Origin: Halopiger djelfimassiliensis
GTDB taxonomy: Archaea > Halobacteriota > Halobacteria > Halobacteriales > Natrialbaceae
NCBI RefSeq assembly: GCF_000455365.1
Contig: NZ_HG315684.1
Location: 23,854 to 87,853, forward strand
Direction: 5' to 3'
Length of the DNA: 64,000 nucleotides
Of this stretch, positions 37,195 to 39,985 are shown one piece after another. The notes beneath the pieces are model-generated. The model was not told the origin of the DNA and ran no database searches. It was given only the letters and a program-made list of their open reading frames with translations. Position 1 is the first letter of the stretch. Each line of letters begins with the position of its first letter. Made by a program: the position numbers and the translations under genes.

Positions 37195-37345
37195 GTGTCG
37201 GTCTTGGGGACTCACGAGTAATAGCCTCCGGAACCGGGCGCGGCGTTGCGTCCGCCGTCGCGTACGAAAGGGGCCGACGTCGGACTCTCCACCCCTGAAA
37301 CTCCGGCTGCGGATTTATATTCGGGCGACACCTACGAGAAATCAC

Positions 37346-37675
37346 ATGGACGGTATCACGATCACGACGACCGACGGTCTCGAGGGTCGGGACGTAGTCG
37401 AGTACTGCGGCGTCATCTCCGGCGAGGCAGTCATCGGCGCAAACGTCGTCAGCGACATCGCGGCCGGCATCCGCGACGTCGTCGGCGGCCGCAGCGGCTC
37501 CTACGAGAAGAAAATCGAGAAAGGGCGCAAGGAAGCGATCGCGGACCTGCGGGCGGACGCCGAGGACCTCGGCGTGGACGCGGTCATCGGTGCGACGTTC
37601 GACTACGAGGAGATGGGAGAAGGGATGCTGTGGGTCAACCTGTCGGGAACGGCGGTCAAGACTCGGAAGGCGTAG
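37346..37675 (+). CDS. YbjQ/UPF0145 family protein
   Basis: A 109-residue protein of the YbjQ (UPF0145, heavy-metal-binding-domain-like) family, recognised from [20 protein letters not shown], the central [20 protein letters not shown] and the C-terminal [15 protein letters not shown]. YbjQ proteins form small pentameric rings; no activity is established. A TATA-like TTTATATT at about 37313-37320 lies near 28 bases from the ATG. It is a single gene; the L7Ae operon follows. Confidence 0.88.
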
Positions 37676-37753
37676 CCGGATCCGGTTCCGGATCGGTCCG
37701 TCCGAGGACGGTCCGTGCGGACCCATCCCACGGCCCCGGCCGTTTGAACACGC

Positions 37754-37759
37754 TTTTAA
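37754..37759 (+). promoter_or_regulatory. TATA box of the L7Ae operon
   Basis: TTTTAA at 37754-37759, followed by a G-run, would place the start of transcription near 37780. The L7Ae ATG is at 37912, so unlike most genes here the mRNA would carry a leader of about 130 bases. Support is the box sequence and the strongly structured RNA that begins just after the expected start site. Confidence 0.5.
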
Positions 37760-37775
37760 GGGGGGCAACGCTACA

Positions 37776-37911
37776 GCGTAGTACACCCTACGCGGGGTTG
37801 ATGATGCTCCTAGCCTCACAGGACTTCCGCCGATTTTACTTCGGCCCGGGGTACCCAGTTCCCCGGACGGCAGGGGAGCGCGAGCCCACGCGTAGGAGAG
37901 GTGAACAACCA
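37776..37911 (+). promoter_or_regulatory. Structured leader RNA of the L7Ae operon
   Basis: A leader that can fold into one long structure ending at the ribosome binding site. A closing stem pairs CCTACGCG (37787-37794) plus GGG (37795-37797) with CCC (37885-37887) plus CGCGTAGG (37889-37896), with one bulged A. Inside it is an asymmetric loop with TTGATGAT on one side and GCGAG on the other, then a GCTCC/GGAGC stem (37806-37810 with 37875-37879), a GCCGA/TCGGC hairpin and a CCGGGG/CCCCGG hairpin. Alternatively CTACGC (37788-37793) can pair with GCGTAG (37776-37781), which frees the right arm. GGAGAGGTGA (37895-37904), a plausible Shine-Dalgarno region, overlaps the right arm. The loop resembles but does not exactly match a kink-turn, the motif bound by L7Ae. 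Confidence 0.55.
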
Positions 37912-38274
37912 ATGTCAGTCTACGTAACCACCGACATCCCAGCCGACCTCGCCGAGGACGCCCTCGAGGCCCTCGAGGTCGCACGAGACACCGGACGAGT
38001 AAAGAAAGGAACCAACGAAACGACGAAAGCCATCGAGCGCGGCAACGCCGAGCTCGTCTACGTCGCCGAGGACGTCTCGCCCGAGGAGATCGTCATGCAT
38101 CTCCCCGAACTCGCGGACGAGAAGGGCATTCCCGTCGTTTTCATCGAGACCCAGGATGACGTCGGTCACGCTGCTGGTCTCGAAGTCGGCTCGGCTGCCG
38201 CGGCGATCGTCGACGCCGGAGAGGCCTCCGGCGACGTCGAGGACATCGCCGAGAAGGTCGAGGACCTCGACTGA
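37912..38274 (+). CDS. rpl7ae: 50S ribosomal protein L7Ae
   Basis: A kink-turn RNA-binding protein found in the ribosome, in box C/D and H/ACA RNPs and in archaeal RNase P. The 120-residue protein shows the family signature ([20 protein letters not shown], then [17 protein letters not shown] and [14 protein letters not shown]). The ATG at 37912 follows a GGAGAGGTGA ribosome binding site by a few bases. It is the first gene of the L7Ae-S28e-L24e-Ndk operon, a conserved archaeal order. Its leader is unusually structured, which would fit autoregulation. Confidence 0.96.
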
Positions 38275-38285
38275 GGTGATCAGAA

Positions 38286-38510
38286 ATGAGTGCTGAAGAG
38301 GAAGAAAGCGGCTCTACGCCCGCCGAGGTCATCGAGGTCGTCGGCAAGACCGGCATGCACGGCGAGGCCATGCAGGTCAAGTGCCGTATCAAGGAGGGCG
38401 AGAATCAGGGACGCATCATTACCCGAAACTGCCTCGGGCCGGTCCGCGAAGGGGACGTACTCCAGCTTCGCGAGACCGCCCGCGAGGCCGACTCCATCGG
38501 AGGACAATAA
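38286..38510 (+). CDS. rps28e: 30S ribosomal protein S28e
   Basis: A small archaeal/eukaryotic ribosomal protein at the mRNA exit region. The 74 residues include [19 protein letters not shown] and the conserved C-terminal [14 protein letters not shown]-like end. It starts 11 bases after L7Ae and its stop overlaps the L24e start by one base. Confidence 0.96.
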
Positions 38511-38887
38511 TGGTCGAGAAACGAACCTGCGACTACACCGGGGAAGAGATCGAACCCGGCACGGGTATCATGTACGTCAAAAACGACGGTACCGTGCTGC
38601 ACTTCGTCGACTCCAAGGCGGAGAAAAACTACAAGCTCGGTCGCGAACCGCGTGACCTCGAGTGGACCGAGGAAGGTCGTCGCGGCAAGGGCCCCGCGGA
38701 AGCGGACACGCCCGCCGACGAGGAAGCCGATCAGGACGAAGTCGTCGAAGCCGGCGAAGACGAGAACCTCGAGACTGAGGAGGAGGCCGTCGACGAGGAC
38801 GAGGAAGACGTACCCGCCGGGGACGAAACCGTCGACGAGACCGAAGAAACCGAAACTGAGGCCGAAGCCGAGGAGAGTGAGGCCTAA
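38510..38887 (+). CDS. rpl24e: 50S ribosomal protein L24e with long acidic tail
   Basis: The zinc-ribbon-like L24e domain fills about residues 1-60 ([19 protein letters not shown], then [20 protein letters not shown]). Only one cysteine remains (Cys7), so the four-cysteine zinc site of other L24e proteins is lost. The C-terminal half (about 62-125) is a nearly pure Glu/Asp/Ala/Thr extension with no predicted fold, about as long as the domain itself. The ATG at 38510 shares a base with the S28e stop; ndk overlaps its end by one base. Confidence 0.93.
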
Positions 38888-39351
38888 TGAGTGACCACGA
38901 GCGCACCTTCGTGATGGTCAAGCCCGACGCCTTCGCGCGCGGGCTCGTCGGCGAGGTTATCTCCCGACTCGAGGACCGCGGGCTCAAGCTCGTCGGGATC
39001 AAGGTCGAGACCATGCCCCGCGAGCGGGCCGAGGAACACTACAGCGAGCACGAGGACAAGCCGTTCTACGACGACCTCGTGGAGTTCATCACCTCCGGTC
39101 CGGTCGTCCCGATGGTCTGGGAAGGGCAGGACGCGACCCGACAGGTCCGCCAGATGATCGGCGAGACCGACCCGCTCGAGGCCGATCCCGGGACGATCCG
39201 TGGCGACTACGCGCTCGACCTCGGTCGGAACGTCGTCCACGCCGCCGACCACGAGGACGAGGGCGCAAACGAACGCGAAATCTCGATCCACTTCGACGAA
39301 GACGAACTCATCGACTACGAGCAACACGACGCTGAGTGGCTCTACGAGTAG
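38887..39351 (+). CDS. ndk: Nucleoside-diphosphate kinase
   Basis: Transfers the terminal phosphate between nucleoside triphosphates and diphosphates through a phospho-His intermediate. The 154-residue protein has the N-terminal FVMVKPDAFARGL, the substrate Lys/Tyr/Arg set (HYSEHEDKPFYDDL, RQMIGETDP) and the catalytic His118 in GRNVVHAADH (Gly-Ser in the usual motif is Ala-Ala here). Length is typical of haloarchaeal Ndk. Last gene of the L7Ae operon. Confidence 0.96.
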   Translation: MSDHERTFVMVKPDAFARGLVGEVISRLEDRGLKLVGIKVETMPRERAEEHYSEHEDKPFYDDLVEFITSGPVVPMVWEGQDATRQVRQMIGETDPLEADPGTIRGDYALDLGRNVVHAADHEDEGANEREISIHFDEDELIDYEQHDAEWLYE

Positions 39352-39384
39352 CGTCGACGATCGGAGCCACGCTTCGGACGGAAA

Positions 39385-39450
39385 TTACACACCGCCGCGA
39401 TCGATTCGCAGTGTGTAAACCCGAAAATAATGTCGTCGTCTTTTCGACGA
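39385..39450. promoter_or_regulatory. Two inverted repeats after ndk
   Basis: TTACACAC (39385-39392) is repeated inverted as GTGTGTAA (39411-39418), a perfect 8-base dyad with an 18-base spacer. A second dyad, TCGTCG (39433-39438) and CGACGA (39445-39450) with a TCTTTT loop, follows. They could end the L7Ae operon transcript or, given their place in the 253-base gap before the DUF7344 regulator gene, be operator sites. Confidence 0.35.
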
Positions 39451-39604
39451 ACTCGAAGTCGAATCGTCATTCGGGCCATCTTTTCGAGCAGTCGTTCCAG
39501 ACTGAAGACACATCCCGGTCTCGGTAGACGTAACATCTAATGTGACGGCTGCAGTAGGTGCGGCTGGTGGTTTCGAATGGTAACATACGGTAGGTGGTCT
39601 GCGG

Positions 39605-39985
39605 ATGCGTGAAACGGAGGGGGAGCCGACGGCGCTCTCGGCCGAGCGGACGCCGTCGCTTGACCTCGTTTTCGATCTGCTCTCGAATCGCCGGCGACGA
39701 TACGCACTGTACGTCCTGTACGAACAGCCGGACGGCGTCGCGACTGTCGAGGAGCTTACGGACGACATCGTCTCGTTCGAACGGCAGTACTCGGGTGCCG
39801 AATCCGAGACCGGTATCGACGACCGAAAGCAGCGGATTCGAACGGAACTCCAGCACGTTCACCTGCCGAAACTCGAGGACGCGGGTATGCTCGAACACGA
39901 CCAGCGCAGCGAGACGGTCCGGTACTGGACACAACCGTCGCTGGAGGAGTGGCTCGAGCACGCACAGCACAAAGAACAACTGTAA
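39605..39985 (+). CDS. DUF7344-type winged-helix protein
   Basis: A 126-residue soluble protein with the pattern LDLVFDLLSNRRRRYALYVL at the N-terminus and LQHVHLPKLEDAGMLEHDQ in the middle, which is the winged-helix architecture of the very common haloarchaeal DUF7344 regulators. The basic RRRRYAL segment and the wing-like HDQRSETVRYW support DNA binding. Target genes are unknown; the neighbouring superoxide dismutase gene lies 230 bases downstream with its own promoter region. Such proteins are abundant in each haloarchaeal genome. Confidence 0.82.
   Translation: MRETEGEPTALSAERTPSLDLVFDLLSNRRRRYALYVLYEQPDGVATVEELTDDIVSFERQYSGAESETGIDDRKQRIRTELQHVHLPKLEDAGMLEHDQRSETVRYWTQPSLEEWLEHAQHKEQL

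Follow-up and report, generated by a model that had tools for sequence, protein, structure and literature searches.

A conserved kink-turn leader ahead of the haloarchaeal L7Ae operon, a candidate for translational autoregulation by L7Ae

The L7Ae operon of Halopiger djelfimassiliensis is headed by a structured leader that is conserved across the haloarchaeal order and very probably acts in cis as a kink-turn RNA through which L7Ae, its putative ligand, would regulate its own translation. We analyzed the leader within a 64,000-nucleotide stretch of contig NZ_HG315684.1 (positions 23,854 to 87,853), here called the window; coordinates are those of the window, and all features described lie on its forward strand. 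Directly upstream, on the same strand as the leader, is a YbjQ-family gene (PF01906; 37346-37675). Downstream follow the genes for L7Ae (37912-38274; Pfam PF01248, E = 2.4e-24), S28e (38286-38510; PF01200), L24e (38510-38887; PF01246), and Ndk (38887-39351; PF00334), an order kept in 76 of 77 long loci. L7Ae binds kink-turns, and an original prediction made from this region had placed these four genes behind an L7Ae leader that is structured and holds a kink-turn-like loop beside the ribosome site; this picture was borne out. An open frame in register with L7Ae starts at a TTG (37246) and runs across the whole leader to 38274. We rejected the leader as coding sequence, since in several leader-bearing relatives the L7Ae open frame is just 122 codons long.

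The promoter (37743-37759) consists of the BRE-like TTTGAACACG and the TATA box CTTTTAA (37753-37759) and is kept 5' of nearly all leaders. The distance from TTTTA to a downstream TACA is 28 to 29 nt in nearly all of them, and this near-invariant spacing puts the likely transcription start at the A of TACA, near 37783, which would give a leader of about 129 nt (37783-37911). The leader begins its fold with the strand CCTACGCG (P1a, 37787-37794), whose partner at 37889-37896 is supported by covariation and pair probabilities. Covariation also supports the continuation of this stem as P1b (37795-37798), in which GGG pairs with CCC at 37885-37887 and U37798 (position -1b) pairs with G37884 (-1n); P1b is the C helix of the kink-turn. 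The complete 3' strand (37884-37896), likewise supported by covariation, therefore reads G, CCC, a bulged A37888, and CGCGTAGG. The bulged strand of the kink-turn (37799-37805) comprises the bulge UGAU (37799-37802), G1b and A2b (37803-37804), and U37805 at 3b, and the alignment sets it opposite the nonbulged strand GA (2n G37882 and 1n A37883).

Beyond the kink-turn, fold and covariation support two further helices, P2 (GCTCCT at 37806-37811, partner 37874-37879) and P3 (GCC at 37813-37815, partner 37869-37871). Their 3' strands, GGC and GGGAGC, occupy 37869-37881 together with the unpaired n-strand nucleotides G37880 and C37881, of which there are one to two at this position; this segment rests on covariation and alignment. 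The apical part holds an unpaired CAGGAC with an AGGRA motif (37819-37824), at a near-constant distance from the kink-turn across leaders, and, in the minimum free energy (MFE) fold, two lineage-specific hairpins (37829-37845 and 37846-37866). The hairpin region as a whole (37829-37866) is variable and nearly missing from the shortest leaders. The Shine-Dalgarno sequence GAGGTGA (37898-37904) is complementary to the 16S rRNA 3' end CACCTCC, with the ATG 7 nt further on. The kink-turn itself lies one full stem, P1, away from the Shine-Dalgarno sequence, and P1 serves as its C helix. The gap between P1 and the Shine-Dalgarno sequence is 1 nt here and 0 to 4 nt in most leaders, whereas the two overlap by 3 nt in several lineages. 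The stem had been expected to cover the start of the ribosome binding site; in the window it ends at 37896 and only abuts the site, and the expected overlap is found in those other lineages.

The leader has an MFE of -66.1 kcal/mol (z = -4.43), below all 200 dinucleotide shuffles. With no protein present, each long-range P1 pair has a probability of 0.99 or more in the ensemble model (37°C, 1 M salt parameters), and the basal stem, which is GC-rich and about 12 bp long, is predicted to be constitutive, that is, formed in the absence of protein. At the DNA level the leader matches 51 of 61 related genomes, most strongly at both ends and with a variable middle. We collected leaders from 80 L7Ae loci and 40 further genomes across the order, and in these the kink-turn lies 76 to 195 nt from the start codon. 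The P1/P2/P3 structure was then tested on an alignment of 48 diverse haloarchaeal leader cores from which the variable middle had been cut out. Under this model 91.2% of the alignment cells are paired, a value favored by construction because the model was drawn from the same sequences, so that compensatory changes are the stronger evidence. Such changes, on both sides, occur in 15 of the 21 modeled pairs. The covariation score was 0.270 compared with 0.145 for shuffled alignments (reached in 0 of 500), and registers slid against one another gave at most 0.104. Across relatives, the first P1b pair is G-C, A-U, or C-G and the last is U-G, U-A, or C-G; the occurrence of G-C, A-U, and C-G at the kink-turn-adjacent pair further supports the bulged purine at 37888. 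These results show the long-range stem to be genuine and highly conserved. Both the pairing of 37787-37794 with 37889-37896 and its GGG/CCC extension stand as first proposed, the extension crossing the bulged A37888.

The original prediction also had CTACGC switch between two folds, pairing either with CGCGTAGG downstream or with GCGTAG upstream (37776-37781). The sequences it quoted are present at their positions, both complements occur in the window, and an upstream helix of at least 6 bp is feasible in 6 of 84 distinct leaders. However, over these 84 leaders the mean length of the longest upstream helix is 3.89 bp, against 3.79 bp with shuffled upstream sequence, a chance level; for the long-range stem the mean is 7.43 of 8. 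The upstream pairs have an ensemble probability of 0.0 even in a transcript that contains the GCGTAG arm, and the arm is probably not transcribed, given the likely start near 37783, downstream of it. Of the two stems, the long-range one is conserved and covaries and the upstream one is unconserved, and we consider the switch extremely improbable.

The internal loop had been described as resembling a kink-turn without fitting one. Taken alone, the window loop (GGGU-UGAU-GA-U-GCUCC against GGAGC-GC-GA-GCCC) is indeed imperfect, with a four-nucleotide bulge and one extra n-strand nucleotide, and most leaders share both features. Relatives from several families have an exact three-nucleotide bulge at the same place, with a closing pair that varies (GGGU-CAU-GA / GA-ACCC, GGGC-GGU-GA / GA-GCCC, and GGGU-UGU-GA / GA-GCCC). 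A C helix, a three-nucleotide bulge, tandem G.A/A.G pairs, and an NC helix occur together, exactly, in L090, L112, L121, L131, L129, L137, L148, and L149, and also in the compact leaders L117, L126, and L151 described below. The columns that never vary in the alignment comprise the final U of the bulge, G1b, A2b, and A1n, together with the adjacent G-C pair and a single apical G; in window numbering, U37802, G37803, and A37804 are unchanged over all 48 sequences. Position 2n is mostly G and is A in family f12. Comparison with relatives indicates that the internal loop is a proper kink-turn. In the f12 leaders L128, L135, L138, L145, and L150, CAAG replaces CGAG, so that the second pair is A.A instead of A.G, and UCGAU replaces UUGAU on the opposite strand.

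A covariance model built on the leader core found the long-form element 5' of L7Ae in 112 of 116 genomes of the order. Strong matches stop about 10 to 15 nt ahead of the L7Ae start codon when coordinates are compared by eye, and a few low-scoring matches cover only the 5' part, in leaders with long inserts. The weak matches examined for extra copies were ordinary coding sequence or had chance-level scores, and revealed no wider set of target genes; two additional weak matches (in G133 and G039) also sit in coding-like sequence. In a sample of the phylum, the sole match outside the order was weak (27.9 bits) and lay inside coding sequence. A search of 37300-39700 against the curated covariance models of Rfam gave no match up to E = 1, and inspection by eye revealed no obvious sequence match between the leader and the L7Ae site of 23S rRNA. 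Control of Nop5 through a leader kink-turn has been reported in other archaea. In the same genome as the window leader, the Nop5 gene (L159) carries a TATA-like CATATAC roughly 30 nt 5' of its ATG and appears leaderless; no long leader was seen by eye, and kink-turn control is not apparent there.

The long leader is missing from the four remaining genomes (L117, L119, L126, and L151, of families f9 and f11). They have instead a standard kink-turn hairpin of compact form, with the sequence CGU-AAU-GA-CGCGC-loop-GCGCG-GA-ACG or one much like it, directly 5' of AGGUGA or AGGU. These leaders keep the kink-turn and are too short for the apical AGGRA motif. We read the compact form as a simpler version of what would be the same regulation, a reading that does not imply common descent. 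In L117, an upstream UCAC is able to pair with GUGA of the Shine-Dalgarno sequence.

We propose that free L7Ae, when it exceeds its rRNA and small-RNA sites, would clamp the leader kink-turn and lock P1, whose 3' strand adjoins or overlaps the Shine-Dalgarno sequence. The locked stem would keep 30S subunits from loading on the L7Ae cistron, and, to judge from the operon alone, the effect may extend to the downstream cistrons of S28e, L24e, and Ndk. Since the model has P1 form even in the absence of protein, a clamped or kinked RNP by the ribosome site is a likelier cause of the block than the folding of an unstructured leader; L7Ae may act by clamping P1 or by setting such an RNP on the site. 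Some observations sit uneasily with autoregulation by L7Ae. The window kink-turn has its four-nucleotide bulge and additional n-strand nucleotide, and with P1 formed in advance and the Shine-Dalgarno core outside the stem, the effect of L7Ae is not obvious. Moreover, haloarchaeal translation is reported to have no strict need for a Shine-Dalgarno sequence (PMC8241225).

The stability of P1 and the free Shine-Dalgarno core in the model would also suit a structure with a part in stabilizing or processing the mRNA, or one that holds the ribosome site constitutively open, with no protein feedback. We regard this as very unlikely, since a generic stem needs no invariant kink-turn core and the long and compact architectures have only the kink-turn in common. 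The AGGRA motif bears on a different alternative. It is present in 80 of 87 distinct leaders, 13 to 16 nt past the kink-turn GA, with variants in the remainder, while the sequence between it and the 3' core ranges from 1 to 119 nt. A conserved, unpaired motif in a near-constant place points to selection on something besides the kink-turn, and the constant presence of S28e and L24e beside L7Ae in the operon adds to the case for an autoregulatory leader whose ligand is S28e or L24e, or in which L7Ae is joined by a further factor recognizing the apical loop. Against this, the invariant core is the kink-turn, a known L7Ae ligand, L7Ae is the first gene, and the compact leaders keep the kink-turn without room for AGGRA; a different or second ligand seems improbable. 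It is also unlikely, if slightly less so, that L7Ae does more than mask the Shine-Dalgarno sequence and, in closing the kink, bends the apical domain, which is about as long as P1, back until the AGGRA loop, or another protein bound to it, rests on the ribosome site, or that AGGRA and the n strand compete for the UCCU of P2 in another two-state switch. A hairpin between the P2 UCCU and the apical AGGRA scored 9.65 compared with 9.27 for shuffled partners (2 of 500, kinship being ignored), with L114 and L133 as counter-examples. Control by L7Ae itself, through the kink-turn, is the reading we favor.

Box C/D RNA kink-turns are built from a C box, RUGAUGA, and a D box, CUGA. The leader sequence UUGAUGA resembles the C box, and L106, L123, and L146 carry CUGA, the D box itself, whereas most leaders have GCGA or UCGA. 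Autoregulation of L7Ae through leader kink-turns has been described for Sulfolobus acidocaldarius, and reporter assays support it for leaders from other archaea (Daume et al. 2017, PMC5539422). Our leader shares with that system the L7Ae gene, a leader kink-turn beside the Shine-Dalgarno sequence, and a presumed negative feedback. The Haloferax volcanii leader was among those tested, with only about 50 bp of upstream region (PMC5539422); in the Haloferax leaders collected here the b strand lies 108 to 110 nt 5' of the start codon, outside that fragment. A legend in PMC5539422 mentions another b strand further upstream (Text S1), and the main text describes neither a P1 that is long and constitutive nor the apical motif. 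In the Archaeoglobus fulgidus L7Ae leader, L7Ae induces kink-turn folding (Huang et al. 2019, PMC6298567). That leader resembles ours in its stem-loop, its GAU-type bulge, and its tandem G:A pairs near the Shine-Dalgarno sequence. It is weakly structured until L7Ae binds, whereas the haloarchaeal P1 is predicted to be already formed, so the model of Huang et al., in which the leader lacks structure without protein, does not describe the window leader.

Covariation analysis has revealed archaeal ribosomal protein leaders, including one for S15 in Halobacteria (Eckert and Weinberg 2020, PMC7247131). The legend to Fig. 1 of that paper names an eL7 leader among the ribosomal protein leaders of archaea, which may or may not cover our element, and no L7Ae motif is among the 20 new ones. 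Apart from two supplements that possibly show parts of it, the literature searched did not contain the haloarchaeal architecture, nor did Rfam. On our best reading, the regulation is known in kind, and the architecture, a constitutive stem of about 12 bp with the ribosome site just outside it and a conserved apical AGGRA motif, is undescribed. The original prediction called such a leader notable because most genes here are leaderless; the leader is a clear exception, kept order-wide and strongly covarying. If L7Ae grips the leader kink, it is probably able to turn off its own synthesis, and the group includes a genetically tractable haloarchaeal model in which this feedback is directly testable. 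For such work the full-length element is now defined, including the distant b strand, which a test fragment of about 50 bp, as in the earlier reporter study, would lack.
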